Positions 33,105-37,920 of a DNA stretch of 64,000 nucleotides are shown here, piece after piece (the stretch's first letter is position 1; every line of letters starts with the position of its first letter). The notes beneath the pieces are model-generated. The model ran no database searches. It saw only the letters and a list, made by a program, of their open reading frames with translations, and was not told the DNA's origin. A program made the translations under genes and the position numbers. This stretch comes from Planktothrix sp. PCC 11201 (GTDB lineage: Bacteria > Cyanobacteriota > Cyanobacteriia > Cyanobacteriales > Microcoleaceae). The DNA lies in NCBI RefSeq assembly GCF_900009135.1, contig NZ_LT797701.1, positions 734,884 through 798,883 on the forward strand, in the 5' to 3' direction.

Positions 33105-33820
33105 CTAAGCGGGATTAGCTTGCAAAGATTCATCTAACAGACGACGAATTGATGCTTTTTCAATAAACCCCACTAACACCCCATTCCGAACAACTGGGAC
33201 TTCATTTAACTGTTGTTGTTCCAGTAAATTCACGACTTCTAATAGGGATTGTTTAGCATCAATGATTGTTGTGAATTCAACGGGTTTCATGACTGTTTCA
33301 ATATGAGTTAACGGCCATTGCGCGGTGGGAATAAGTTTAAGGTCATCTCCGCTAATTTGACCGACTAATTTGCCTACTTCATTGATGACTAAAAATTGTT
33401 GAATTGCAGGTTTCCCAATAATATAATCATTGACAAAGTTTCTTAATGAAATGTCTTGAGAAACCACGGAATTTTGATTCACTAAAGCATCCTCGGCGGT
33501 AAAACCCGATAATTTATTCCGCAGCTTGGCATCTTTGGCTAAAATCCCGGCATTACTAAATACAAACCACCCAATCAAAATTGTCCAGAAATTAGGAGAC
33601 CCACCGGAGGTTAACAGAGGTAAAAATCCCAAGGAAATTCCGATTAAACCTAATCCTTGACCCGCCCGACTGGCAAAGATAGTCCCCTGATATTGATTCC
33701 CGGTAATTTTCCAAACCAACGCCTTGAGAATATTCCCACCATCAAGGGGTAAACCAGGAATTAAATTAAAGACCGCTAAGGCTAAATTAACATAAGCTAA
33801 AAGATTTACTAAAGCCGATA
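33105..33820 (-). pseudogene. Site-2-protease/CBS gene, 3' part, cut by IS630-type element
   Basis: From the border it reads SALVNLLAYVNLALAVFNLIPG (in two parts), then LPLDGGNIL, the second M50 motif, whose aspartate binds the zinc of HExxH in the intact enzyme. Two CBS domains fill the C-terminal 130 residues (ending near residue 373 of the joined protein). Removing the element and one TA joins it in frame with 35008-35415. Alone it lacks HExxH and should be inactive, although an internal ATG near the border is open. Confidence 0.9.
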
Positions 33821-35007
33821 AGCTGTTAAGCATCTAAATAGGGTATAATGAAAAACTAAGTTTAGAAAAATCAATAAAAATATGCCTGCTAAAAATCACT
33901 TAAATGAAAAGCAAGTAGAGAAACTACAGAAAAGATTGAAAGAGGAAGAAAATGGACAAATTAGAGAAAGAATCTTGATTCTACTATTGCTAAATGATGG
34001 TAAAAAACAAAGTGAAATTGCCAATTTTTTGGGATGTTCAATAAATAAAGTATGTTATTGGTGTGTACATGGAGATCCGGACAAGTTAGAAAGCCTAAAA
34101 GATGAAAGAATGAAAGGAAATTATAGAAAAGCCACAGATAAATATATAGAGATATTATTAGAAACTGTAGAAAAAGAACCGGAAGAATTAGGATATGAAT
34201 TTGGGAGATGGACAGGAGAAAGATTGGCAACTTATTTAGAACAAATCACAGAAATAAAATTAAGTGGTTCACAAGTGAGAAGGATATTAAAGAAAAAAAA
34301 GTATGTTTACTTGTGGGCAAAGTATAGCTTGGAAGAGAAAAGAGATCCAGAAAAAAGGAAATTATTTAAAAATAAAATAGAAGAGTATTTAAAAATAACA
34401 AAAGAAAGTCCAGAACAATTACAGGTATGGTTTTGGGATGAAAGTGGATTTAATTTAAGAGTAATAAAAAGAAAGAACTGGTGTAAAAAAGGAAAGAGGA
34501 GAAAGATTAGAGGAGACAGAAGAAAAGGAAAAGTTAATGTTATGGGAGGATTGAGGTACTCGGACAAAAAAAGATTTGTAGAATTTCTGGATAAAGGGAA
34601 TGCAAATAATTTTTATCAAGTGTTAAAAAGTTTTTATCAAGAGCTAATTCATGAGTGGGTATTAGCGGGAAATCAAGCAGAAGAATTTGTAGAAAAAGGA
34701 GCCAAGATTGTCATTATTCTTGATAATGCAAGTTTTCACAAAAAAGAAGAATACCTAGAAAAAATCAAAGCAGAAATGCCGAATATCTATTTAGAATTTC
34801 TTCCAGAATATAGTCCAGATTATAATTTAATTGAATTGGTCTGGCATTCAGCTAAAGAATATATTGCTAATCGACTCTTTAAATCAGTTGATGAGCTAGA
34901 GTGTTTATTGCATCAGCTTTTAAATGAGGGACAGTTATCTATTAAATGGGGACGTAAACTTAAAAACAAAGGTAATGCTATAATCACAGTTTAAATGCAC
35001 AACAGCT
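33821..35007 (+). mobile_element. IS630-family insertion sequence
   Basis: A 1187-bp element flanked by TA at 33819-33820 and 35008-35009, the target duplication of the IS630/Tc1 group. The ends are inverted repeats: the left begins AGCTGTTAAGCATCTAAA and the right, read inward, AGCTGTTGTGCATTTAAA, with two or three mismatches. It carries one intact transposase gene and is visibly more AT- and purine-rich than its surroundings. It looks recent. Confidence 0.93.
33882..34994 (+). CDS. IS630-family transposase
   Basis: A 370-residue DDE transposase. The N-terminal helix-turn-helix region is near residues 25-60 (KKQSEIANFLGCSINKV). The catalytic acids are D in FWDESGF near 182, D in IILDNASFH near 280 and E in YSPDYNLIELVWHSAKEY near 318, in the D-D-E spacing of the family. 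It is a single open frame without the frameshift found in some relatives. The gene nearly fills its element and disrupts a membrane protease gene. Confidence 0.95.
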   Translation: MPAKNHLNEKQVEKLQKRLKEEENGQIRERILILLLLNDGKKQSEIANFLGCSINKVCYWCVHGDPDKLESLKDERMKGNYRKATDKYIEILLETVEKEPEELGYEFGRWTGERLATYLEQITEIKLSGSQVRRILKKKKYVYLWAKYSLEEKRDPEKRKLFKNKIEEYLKITKESPEQLQVWFWDESGFNLRVIKRKNWCKKGKRRKIRGDRRKGKVNVMGGLRYSDKKRFVEFLDKGNANNFYQVLKSFYQELIHEWVLAGNQAEEFVEKGAKIVIILDNASFHKKEEYLEKIKAEMPNIYLEFLPEYSPDYNLIELVWHSAKEYIANRLFKSVDELECLLHQLLNEGQLSIKWGRKLKNKGNAIITV

Positions 35008-35415
35008 TAAAGCACCCGTTACTATCAAATAGGAGCCAATAAAATGCAACCCCAAAAATAATAATAAACTGACTAAAGGCCCGGCAATGGCAATCCAAAA
35101 AGCCCCGGCGGGTGTTTTCGCTTCTTGGTCTAACCCGGCTAATCCCCCAAATAAAAATAACGTAATAGATTTAACCTGAATTCCTTGTTTGATTGCTACA
35201 AAACTATGTCCTAATTCATGGGCTAAAACCGAAGCAAATAGGAGTAATGCGGCAATTAATCCGAGGAATAATGACAGTCCTAAACCTAATTGGGGAAATT
35301 GAGACCCCAAATTCCCCCCATAACTGAGGGTCATTAATCCCAGAATCAGAAACCAAGAAAGGTTAATATAAAATGGGATACCGAATAAATTACCGACGCG
35401 AATAGAGCCATTCAT
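35008..35415 (-). pseudogene. Site-2-protease/CBS gene, 5' part, cut by IS630-type element
   Basis: It codes the first 136 residues of an M50 metalloprotease: MNGSIRVGNLFGIPFYINL, membrane segments, HELGH at residues 66-70 with the catalytic glutamate, and AIAGPLVSLLLF. It then runs into the IS end and adds a short foreign tail to 34984. Intramembrane proteases of this group cut membrane-bound regulators. The rest of the protein is at 33105-33820; the joined product would be about 373 residues. Confidence 0.9.
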
Positions 35416-35580
35416 GTTGGCTACCTCTTATTAATTATCCAGAAGTAGATTCAACCTCTGGTCTTTTATAAACCTATTGTAACGAATTGTAAACAAACTT
35501 GGCAATCTCCTCTAGGTTGTATATACCAACCTATCAAGTACGGTTTTCCGCTTTTACAATACCGTCACTATCTTTATTCT

Positions 35581-36039
35581 TCAAAATTCTTCAAAGTTTC
35601 CAATAGAGGAATCTTCTACAAGTTCTTTAAAACTATCTGGAAACTTTCCACTTTCAACCATTTTAGTAAAAACCGTATAGCAATCCTTTTTATCTCCTTG
35701 TTTTCGAGGAAACCCTAACCATAAAATAACAATTTCTTTTTCATCTTCATTATACTTAAAAAATAACCTATGTCGCTTCTCTAGGCCCATCTTTTTCACC
35801 CGTTTATAATTAGACAAATCACCATGTAGTTGAAAATAGGTGGCAGTTGGATCTGCGGGAATGATCTCTGTTATTAGTCTTATTAATGATTTTAGCAACT
35901 TGACTTCCGGGTGTTTAGCAAATTCATCTGGGTTTCGCTTTGATTCTAACTTCTTTACCCTAGAAACTAATTCATTATAATATCCTAAAAAAGCGGGATG
36001 AAAGTAGATTTTACACCCATTACAAAGTAGAAAGTTCAT
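35581..36039 (-). CDS. YhaV-like toxin of a type II toxin-antitoxin system
   Basis: A 152-residue protein. It starts LLCNGCKIYFHPAFLGYYNEL, matching the NGW-x-I-x-xHPxF head of YhaV. Later it has RHRLFFKYNEDEKEIVILWL and KKDCYTVFTKMVESGKFPDS, which match the YhaV C-terminal half (FFRY, D-x-Y-x-VF-x-KMLESG). YhaV toxins are RelE/ParE-fold ribonucleases. It lies 14 bp after an unknown 229-residue gene, its likely partner, rather than after a PrlF-type antitoxin. The family is assigned from memory of motifs. Confidence 0.75.
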   Translation of the reverse strand: MNFLLCNGCKIYFHPAFLGYYNELVSRVKKLESKRNPDEFAKHPEVKLLKSLIRLITEIIPADPTATYFQLHGDLSNYKRVKKMGLEKRHRLFFKYNEDEKEIVILWLGFPRKQGDKKDCYTVFTKMVESGKFPDSFKELVEDSSIGNFEEF

Positions 36040-36053
36040 AGTGTTTGATCTGC

Positions 36054-36743
36054 TTAAATCCCCTTAAGAAGTTGATTCAACTCCAAATTCATTTCCTCTG
36101 TATAAGGAACCAAATTATCATGATTTTTTTTAACATCCTCATTTATAAAGTTAAGAAATTCGCGACAATGACCATCATCTAAAAATAACTTTTCGTCTTC
36201 AGGATCATCAGCGTTAACCACAGCATTTATAAACTTTGAAGCAGTTTTAAATAAATGAAAATAAACTTTCTTAAAGGGAGGTAAATAACCAGAGTTTTTC
36301 TTATCGTTAAGCAAACCTTCGACTAAAATATCTGGTTTAAGTAATGCCAGTGAGGTAGTTAGTTCCTCAAAGTTTTCTCTCTGTTTACAGGGAAGATCGC
36401 ACCAATACTGTTCAACAATTTCTATCAAAATTAAATTAATAGCCACCAGTATTTCAAGTTGACGCTTAAGCTTTTTATTGATTTTACGAATATTTTTTGT
36501 TCTAAGAGGGCGGATACTTCTGCAAAGCTCGGTTTGAAGAGCTAGTAAGCGATTTCTTTTCTTAAAAAAGGGTTCAACCTCTTTTATTTTTTTTCTATAC
36601 ACACCAGGGTTTGCAGCTAGTTCTGTTATGCACTGATGATCTTCTGCTTCAACAACATTAGAGTTAAAACAACGCTCAAACAAATCTATCAAAGATTTTG
36701 GAATCTTTTGGAGTTCGTTTTCCCGCTCTATTATTGTAGTCAC
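36054..36743 (-). CDS. Unknown protein, candidate partner of the YhaV-like toxin
   Basis: A 229-residue, mostly helical, charged protein starting MTTIIERENELQKIPKSLID. The middle is strongly basic (RTKNIRKINKKLKRQLEIL) and the C-terminal third is acidic (NADDPEDEKLFLDDGH). I see no AbrB/SpoVT swapped-hairpin, RHH or HTH motif. It ends 14 bp before the YhaV-like gene on the same strand, the position an antitoxin would take. The start is GTG at 36743. No homologue was recognised. Confidence 0.6.
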   Translation of the reverse strand: MTTIIERENELQKIPKSLIDLFERCFNSNVVEAEDHQCITELAANPGVYRKKIKEVEPFFKKRNRLLALQTELCRSIRPLRTKNIRKINKKLKRQLEILVAINLILIEIVEQYWCDLPCKQRENFEELTTSLALLKPDILVEGLLNDKKNSGYLPPFKKVYFHLFKTASKFINAVVNADDPEDEKLFLDDGHCREFLNFINEDVKKNHDNLVPYTEEMNLELNQLLKGI

Positions 36744-36933
36744 TTGGTTTAAAGGTTCCTTGCAATGACATTCAGAGTTGGCATCTTTTTCTATGCACTA
36801 TTCCCAGAGTATAGAAAAGTGCAGGCACTTCCATAATAGCATTCTATATTGAAGTATTGCAACTATTCGTGAAAAATCTTGCCATTTTGGGTAAAACAGC
36901 ATACTCGCGAATAACGCTACAGTAATTTTCGAC

Positions 36934-37920
36934 TTAAACCTGATAATAGGAGCGATACCATTCTACAAAGCGTTGGACTCCGACTTCTATAGAAGTATTG
37001 GGTTGAAAGTTGATATCTTGAATTAAAGCATCGACATCCGCATAGGTTATAGGGACATCTCCGGGTTGAATGGGCATGAAATTTTTGATTGCGGGTTTAC
37101 CCAATGCCGTTTCTAAGACTTCAATCAAATGTAATAATTCAATCGGTTGATTATTCCCGATATTATAAAGTTTATAGGGTGCGTTTGTATGTGGGTTTTC
37201 ACCGGATTGGGGAATTCTATCTAATGTTCTAATTACTCCTTCTACGATATCGTCAATATAGGTAAAATCCCGCTGCATTTTGCCATAGTTAAACACATCA
37301 ATGGGTTTTTCTTCGAGAATGGCTTTGGTGAAAATAAACATCGCCATATCAGGACGATACCAAGGCCCATAAACAGTGAAAAATCGTAATCCTGTCATCG
37401 GAATATGATATAAATGACTGTAGCTGTGGGCGATTAATTCATTAGATTTTTTGGTTGCTGCATATAAACTAATCGGATAATCTACATTATCTTCTACTGA
37501 AAACGGTATTTTTTTATTTGCCCCATAAACGGAACTGGAAGACGCATAAACTAAATGTTTAATTGGGGAATAGCGACACCCTTCTAAAATATTGATAAAC
37601 CCCACTAGGTTACTATTAATATAAGCATAGGGATTTTTTAAAGAATATCTTACCCCGGCTTGGGCAGCAAGATGGGCAACTTGTTCAAAATTTCCCTGAA
37701 CAAATAACTGATTGATTCCCTCTCTATCCGCTAAATCTAGTTTTTGAAAGGAAAATCCTGTTCGGTTTTTTAACTGTTCTAAACGGGCTTGTTTCAGAGA
37801 AACATCATAATAATCACTGAGATTATCAATTCCGATGATGGTGTCCCCTCGGTCTAACAAACGTTGACACAGGTGAAATCCAATAAATCCCGCCACCCCG
37901 GTCACTAATAAGTTAGCCAT
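36934..37920 (-). CDS. NAD-dependent epimerase, UDP-glucuronate 4-epimerase type
   Basis: About 328 residues, an extended short-chain dehydrogenase. The NAD loop is GVAGFIG near residue 8. The catalytic serine lies in YASSSSVYG and the Y-x-x-x-K pair in YAATKK near 145-150. GIDNLSDYYDVSLKQAR and the TVYGPWYRPDMA segment match CapI/LspL-type UDP-glucuronate epimerases of surface polysaccharide pathways. ATG at 37920 was chosen because GGGGA precedes it; an in-frame upstream start would add 13 residues. No other sugar gene is adjacent. Confidence 0.87.
   Translation of the reverse strand: MANLLVTGVAGFIGFHLCQRLLDRGDTIIGIDNLSDYYDVSLKQARLEQLKNRTGFSFQKLDLADREGINQLFVQGNFEQVAHLAAQAGVRYSLKNPYAYINSNLVGFINILEGCRYSPIKHLVYASSSSVYGANKKIPFSVEDNVDYPISLYAATKKSNELIAHSYSHLYHIPMTGLRFFTVYGPWYRPDMAMFIFTKAILEEKPIDVFNYGKMQRDFTYIDDIVEGVIRTLDRIPQSGENPHTNAPYKLYNIGNNQPIELLHLIEVLETALGKPAIKNFMPIQPGDVPITYADVDALIQDINFQPNTSIEVGVQRFVEWYRSYYQV

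Follow-up and report, generated by a model that had tools for sequence, protein, structure and literature searches.

A YhaV toxin gene and its upstream partner

We analyzed a 64,000-nt stretch of contig NZ_LT797701.1 of Planktothrix sp. PCC 11201, referred to in the following as the window. Two adjacent genes on its reverse strand constitute a predicted toxin–antitoxin pair:

35581..36039, reverse strand: YhaV-family toxin, 152 aa, ATG start (PF11663, E = 3.6e-45)
36054..36743, reverse strand: composite antitoxin, 229 aa, GTG start (open reading frame; no Pfam match at E ≤ 1)

A first-pass annotation had described a YhaV-like toxin preceded, at a distance of 14 bp, by the gene of a 229-residue protein. 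Both open reading frames were found where this annotation had placed them, with the antitoxin gene directly upstream of the YhaV gene and a gap of 14 nt. The toxin lies well within the YhaV family, scoring 153.8 bits against PF11663 (cut-off 35). In an alignment of 60 YhaV sequences, including the window toxin, it carries the consensus residue at 24 of the 30 columns conserved to at least 90% and departs from it at the other six (C9, A16, Y20, S51, H90 and K95); all nine columns that are invariant across the 60 rows are kept, among them R80, K82 and W107. Sharing a strand and separated by only 14 nt, the two genes are presumably cotranscribed.

The partner was searched for known domains. Neither Panacea (PF13274) nor any other Pfam family matched it at E ≤ 1, PADLOC and PHROGs returned no result, and an AbrB domain was detected neither by Pfam at this threshold nor by our AbrB1 and AbrB2 models (E ≤ 1e-3), nor in the AF2 prediction, which is all-helical. 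This agrees with the original description of a helical protein lacking the usual AbrB fold or a known DNA-binding motif, and so does its charge pattern, with a basic middle (net +15, residues 48–96) and an acidic end (net −7, residues 181–229). The claim that the partner is three times larger than usual needed correction: since AbrB-type partners mostly measure about 105–118 aa, it is roughly twice the common size. The basic segment may contact nucleic acid.

36456..36602, reverse strand: basic segment, residues 48–96, net +15 (charge count)

Upstream of the antitoxin gene, we considered one candidate operator:

36787..36818, no strand: imperfect inverted repeat, 13-nt arms, 6-nt spacer (not above chance)

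It was rejected as operator evidence, as the best repeat of the region was reached by 35 of 200 shuffles. Promoter-like sites upstream were likewise dismissed, with 6 present and 6.2 expected.

Genomic site and distribution of the module

The surroundings of the pair were compared with the corresponding site in nine other genomes of the genus.

35553..36933, no strand: module-bearing segment, edges approximate (homology ends at 35552–35560 and resumes at 36934–36943)
35803..35899, reverse strand: piece of the toxin gene surviving in the scar of genome G009 (L214; 92.8% identity over 97 nt)

In eight of the nine genomes, the module is absent and the flanking M50 peptidase and epimerase genes stand side by side, with 47–130 nt between the aligned flank blocks. 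The ninth, G009, holds a scar consisting of 97 nt from the toxin gene plus a segment matching 36837–36933. Accordingly, the module either existed already in a common ancestor with G009 or also reached that genome, where it has since decayed.

Relatives of the window antitoxin were found, at the thresholds used, in none of the plasmid, phage, viral contig and genome contig collections searched, the scans of genome and viral contigs being of a kind that detects close relatives only. The window toxin matched 321 plasmid records and, in the same close-relative scan, no viral contig.

An insertion-sequence-like element was seen nearby at 33822–35007. It encodes a 370-aa transposase (DDE_3, E = 9.4e-37), is bordered by inverted repeats (33819–33838 and 34990–35009), and we take it to be IS630-like. 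This element splits an M50 peptidase gene that contains a CBS domain. The two halves of this gene adjoin in all nine of the other genus genomes, with an overlap of a few nucleotides in five of them and 16 unaligned nucleotides in four; the overlap would fit a TA target duplication.

The antitoxin ends in a PrlF-type tail

36060..36158, reverse strand: PrlF-type tail, residues 196–228 (FLNFINEDVKKNHDNLVPYTEEMNLELNQLLKG; HMM E = 2.4e-10)

An HMM built from the tails of 18 AbrB-type PrlF proteins matched residues 196–228 of the window antitoxin at E = 2.4e-10, with the best of 1000 shuffles reaching 6.9e-4. The same HMM recognized the tails of YhaV partners with Phd (L055, 2.5e-23), helical (L005, 2.6e-13) and Panacea (L204, 2.5e-13) front domains. 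The sole hint from NCBIfam was PRK09974 (PrlF), which touched residues 189–229 with 12.8 bits (cut-off 125), and PF15937 was not among the Pfam matches at E ≤ 1. On the basis of its sequence, the tail can be assigned to the PrlF type with confidence.

Given this match and the absence of a detectable AbrB domain, the partner therefore holds a PrlF tail without the AbrB domain of PrlF. The idea of a partner unrelated to PrlF is ruled out by the tail HMM, and the window partner is a variant of the PrlF–YhaV kind and not a wholly new antitoxin class, as the first-pass annotation had contemplated; what stands of that proposal is the unfamiliar N-terminal region. Likewise, a PrlF for this toxin does exist in part, inside the C-terminal tail of the partner itself.

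As to conservation of the pair, no intact orthologue was found, and the N-terminal half of the antitoxin was matched in only one of 148 genomes, its own. The end of the protein was matched in five other genomes (single-sequence search of the 148). Three of these matches lie directly before a YhaV gene, two in AbrB-type PrlF proteins (L002, L004) and one in a 174-aa helical partner (L005); the remaining matches (L003, L006) are short pieces of tail beside which a toxin was not found.

Front domains of YhaV partners

Beyond the window, YhaV genes were surveyed at two taxonomic levels. Of 386 genomes from the phylum, 63 had a PF11663 match at E ≤ 1e-3 (54 over the family cut-off); of 388 from the order, 156 did (127 over the cut-off). 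We inspected 123 loci, comprising the fetched loci of the phylum search, L005, the window and 59 lower-scoring loci of the order search; L002 and L004 were left out of the count as repeats of L069 and L036. A toxin reading frame was present in all of these loci except L206. Among the remaining 122 loci, the front end of the partner was AbrB in 107 (72 AbrB2 and 35 AbrB1), Phd in three, Panacea in one, helical in two (L005 and the window) and of another type in six, with none found in three; these proportions are not frequencies, because most of the high-scoring, AbrB1-type places of the order search were left out, and the label "helical" of the window is not independent here, as one of the 37 rows of the full-length family model that assigned it carries a PrlF tail.

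Two of the Phd assignments come from Pfam (L055, 5e-14; L193, 1e-14), the third (L203) from a shared motif, and the Panacea assignment (L204) again from Pfam (4e-16). At L204, where a Panacea front is joined to the YhaV-type tail, the toxin gene is interrupted by two stops, leaving an open piece of 99 aa. Taken together, the survey suggests that the YhaV-binding tail is a portable part of these antitoxins, able to follow at least four kinds of front domain.

Different front domains also coexist within single genomes. A second YhaV gene in the window's own genome (L032) is accompanied by a canonical AbrB-type PrlF, and genome G103 contains three YhaV modules with AbrB (L024), Phd (L055) and helical (L005) front ends. 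A tree of the toxins puts the Phd locus L055 amid AbrB2 loci. Long branches lead to the window and L005, for which a sister relation is neither supported nor rejected (p-AU 0.236). L033, L065 and L068 had no match in the toxin search and were left out of the tree, one of 61 toxins was dropped for its length, and nine rows marked "?" were typed as AbrB2 by eye.

At three loci (L033, L034 and L035), the YhaV partners measure 100–116 aa, contain ELPEDF near their end, and have an N-terminus that the AbrB models did not match; this may possibly be a degenerate AbrB domain or another front domain.

A family of helical antitoxin domains

The front domain of the 174-aa partner at L005 also occurs without a PrlF tail, in nine places. 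At E ≤ 1e-3, a profile built from six rows, one of them L005 itself, detected this domain, which has no family model, in 50 of the 388 order genomes, with partial matches among them. A 29-row profile, which includes the RelE-type tail, matched 19 out of 214 phylum genomes; in nine, the match was confined to the tail. No scanned member matched a Pfam or NCBIfam family over its cut-off; the nearest matches were CFAP47 (4.5e-4, below cut-off) and PrlF models touching the tail of L005.

Subsequently, the gene that follows was recorded at 52 helical-domain loci (reading frames over 130 aa; some of them seeds of the profile). It was RelE-like in 39 cases, as judged by a gene model built from 12 of these loci, PIN-like in five, YhaV in one and another RelE-like type in one, with none found in six. 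Helical proteins preceding the main RelE-like gene measure about 165 aa; those preceding PIN-like genes are longer. The main RelE-like gene family ends in WIYTHAEF.KRP. Among 12 of its members, Pfam gave HigB_toxin in seven (best E 0.0035), ParE_toxin in two and ParE-like_toxin in one, weak hits that tentatively point to a RelE-like identity. PDB sequence searches with the window antitoxin, the helical profile, the window toxin and the RelE-like profile returned nothing usable, so the RelE-like label stands without PDB support. The genes after the longer helical proteins appear PIN-like from a pattern of acidic residues seen by eye, and the one member scanned (L148) had no Pfam match at E ≤ 1. 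The antitoxins of this PIN type are, by profile comparison, relatives of the main helical group (hhalign probability 93, E = 2.5e-7).

For the family, AF2 gave a model with helices at residues 25–46, 49–63, 69–91 and 95–119 and a mean pLDDT of 70. With Foldseek, neither this model nor that of the window antitoxin had a PDB match at E ≤ 0.001, an absent match being no proof of a new fold, and the best VIA-align Z scores (7.2 for the window, 5.1 for the family model) are at a level common for helical bundles. In a 19-residue Kyte–Doolittle scan, 10 of 37 family rows reach 1.6, and the window reaches 1.54. The hydrophobic stretch of the family rows often lies in the third predicted helix (for example, residues 73–91 of L101), which might be buried or face a membrane.

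Relatives of individual family members were found neither in plasmids (for L088, L148 and L102) nor in viral contigs (for L101 and A7), the latter by a scan that detects close relatives only. The L005 antitoxin gave three partial matches in plasmids (22–30% coverage, best E 3e-3, at the tail) and none in the genome contig collection, again with a scan limited to close relatives.

Two further details were noted by inspection. At L243 (G021:C79), a PIN-type helical antitoxin of 282 aa with a longer C-terminus is followed by a different gene that by eye resembles a classic PIN/VapC toxin gene; the PIN partner, too, thus seems to vary. In three remnant loci (L247, L248 and L251), the reading frame of a neighbouring small protein (MNLSFKDLRF...) runs on unbroken into the RelE-type tail, which looks as though the helical domain had been deleted.

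Exchange with Panacea before a RelE-like gene

Six places at which only the tail had been matched were inspected; two of them (L252, L253) proved to carry Panacea domains, and four (L247, L248, L249, L251) are remnants. At L252 and L253, Panacea was recognized by Pfam (4e-19 and 2.8e-19) and the RelE-type tail by its HMM (4.9e-11 and 4.5e-9; best of 600 shuffles 2.9e-5), and the gene that follows is the same RelE-like gene as after the helical family. Fifteen further loci, namely 12 of the 13 tail-only places of the 29-row search and three with open frames near 200 aa or more, were all Panacea fusions according to an HMM of three sequences, with only a short Panacea piece at L272; these loci were in part picked for a Panacea-like size. 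The RelE-like gene adjoins 13 of the 15. In all, Panacea stands on the RelE-type tail at 17 loci. On the YhaV-type tail, it was found once, and the helical domain once in addition to the window.

With tail and downstream gene shared, the helical domain and Panacea thus alternate before the RelE-like gene. A relationship between the two domains themselves is unsupported: no similarity was detectable by hhalign, with a probability of 1.1 for the family and of 0.3 for the window.

Probable relationship of the window antitoxin to the helical family

36207..36500, reverse strand: predicted four-helix core, residues 82–179, proposed divergent member of the helical domain family (HMM rank, hhalign, AF2)

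With the tail removed, the window antitoxin (residues 1–185) scored 9.7 bits in total against a 37-row family model, with 8.2 bits for the best stretch; taken as a single comparison, E is 3.5e-5. None of 500 shuffles scored as high, the best reaching 5.5. Ranked against 822 other reading frames, it came first in three models (687, 669 and 694 reported), one of them built without the row of L005, and second of 651 reported in the six-row model. Its lead over background reading frames is about 1–2.5 bits, as in 9.7 versus 8.8 for the best unrelated one. In hhalign, window and family aligned over 76 columns with a score of 25.5 and E = 0.0023 at a probability of only 12.7; the best of 150 shuffles scored 17.8 and the best of 200 real reading frames 21.2. 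This alignment places W114 of the window on the conserved W of the family.

The AF2 model of the window (mean pLDDT 66) contains helices at residues 82–113, 119–133, 137–150 and 157–179, and shows the family's pattern of four helices, a W where the first core helix ends, and a tail behind them, a likeness that is not independent because the window's alignment held family rows. On the evidence of these comparisons, the part of the window antitoxin that precedes the tail is probably a divergent member of the helical family.

Comparison with known systems

YhaV has been described as an RNase of the RelE superfamily (PMC5408214; PMC11980606), with the ribosome dependence of mRNA cleavage by the E. 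coli enzyme disputed between these two papers, and PrlF as an AbrB-type DNA-binding protein that controls its own operon (PMC5408214; PMC11980606). In cyanobacteria, slr0724–slr0725 of Synechocystis is listed as an AbrB–YhaV pair (PMC4963859). The window pair shares with PrlF–YhaV of E. coli the toxin, the antitoxin gene directly upstream and the PrlF-type C-terminal tail; it differs in that its antitoxin lacks an AbrB domain, is about twice as long and has a front half predicted to be all-helical. The Phd/YefM-fronted antitoxins (L055, L193, L203) show the same swap of the N-terminus on a PrlF tail before YhaV, whereas they carry a known Pfam DNA-binding domain where the window has the helical one. 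The helical antitoxins of about 165 aa before RelE-like genes have the proposed same core with the conserved W and the same gene order with the antitoxin first, but they are shorter than the window protein and bear another tail and toxin.

A further parallel is provided by the Panacea (DUF4065/SocA) antitoxins, in which one front domain is reused across toxins and neutralizing tails (PMC8832971; PMC10440598). While the helical domain is predicted to be all-alpha, Panacea consists of seven helices and two strands (PMC10440598). The Phd-C tail of a Panacea antitoxin, when fused to SUMO, was reported to neutralize a Doc toxin without Panacea in one system, and the authors put forward the hypothesis that Panacea itself is possibly a sensor (PMC10440598). 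By term counts, YhaV, PrlF and cyanobacteri- are absent from the main text of the Panacea and NetFlax papers (PMC8832971, PMC10440598). Our search of literature titles and abstract openings, with most subscription journals outside its scope, yielded no description of the helical domain. The window pair is a PrlF–YhaV variant with a front domain that has no family model.

Proposed mode of action and alternative explanations

We consider it likely that the pair is a type II module in which the PrlF tail silences YhaV and the helical part serves as an interchangeable front domain. Going by its family, YhaV would act as an RNase. The tail of the antitoxin (about residues 190–229), homologous in sequence to that of PrlF, would bind and silence it. 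The helical N-terminal part, whose domain identity is probable, stands in place of the AbrB DNA-binding domain of PrlF; it would be one of a set of front ends (AbrB, Phd, Panacea, helical) that can be exchanged on tails specific to the toxin. Most likely, we infer, this domain contributes folding, dimerization and control of the module. Control could be exerted through the basic segment by repression of the operon, or by sensing a trigger that frees the toxin, by analogy with the proposal for Panacea. More tentatively, and with somewhat less than an even chance of being right, the helical domain would be an undescribed cyanobacterial plug-in comparable to Panacea that is swapped with AbrB, Phd and Panacea, pairs with YhaV, RelE-like and PIN-like toxins, and releases the toxin upon sensing a trigger such as phage infection, with the window carrying a highly diverged copy to which a basic segment has been added.

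The evidence leaves some room, at roughly one chance in a handful by our judgement, for the N-terminal part of the window antitoxin being an orphan helical domain outside the family, in which case the PrlF tail would still neutralize the toxin. Scores just above background and the low hhalign probability fit such a reading, as do the comparison with the PIN-type subset alone (E = 0.037) and the failure of the family profiles to pick up the window in whole-genome searches at E ≤ 1e-3. Membership in the family is favored by the best score in three of four models, above the shuffles, and by an aligned block that runs from the conserved W to the end of the domain, just before the tail, as in L005; moreover, L005 is a family member, one of the six profile seeds, with a PrlF tail before YhaV. 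A different division of labor, in which the helical domain mainly neutralizes YhaV and the PrlF-like tail is secondary, finds a precedent in the Panacea core, which directly neutralizes some toxins (PMC10440598). We regard it as improbable: the tail is the part common to the AbrB, Phd, Panacea and helical partners of YhaV, and the helical domain bears a different tail before the RelE-like gene.

Slightly less probable still is a decaying module, in which the AbrB domain was lost or written over and the two genes have ceased to function as a pair. Decay does occur around this system, since the sister genome G009 keeps fragments only, several YhaV places elsewhere are interrupted by stops, and there are tail pieces lacking a toxin (L003, L006); the six departures at conserved toxin columns point in the same direction. 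Against this, both reading frames of the window are open, the toxin keeps the nine invariant columns, the tail is well conserved, and L005, from another family of the order, has a similar architecture.

As Panacea and the helical domain stand on the same kinds of tail and often before the same RelE-like gene, they offer a natural control for the role of the front domain, a role that the authors of the Panacea study left as a hypothesis (PMC10440598). At L253 (G014), the Panacea/RelE-like pair is followed after 6 nt by a gene that resembles, by eye, a C5 DNA methyltransferase gene; the surroundings of this locus are possibly a defence neighbourhood.
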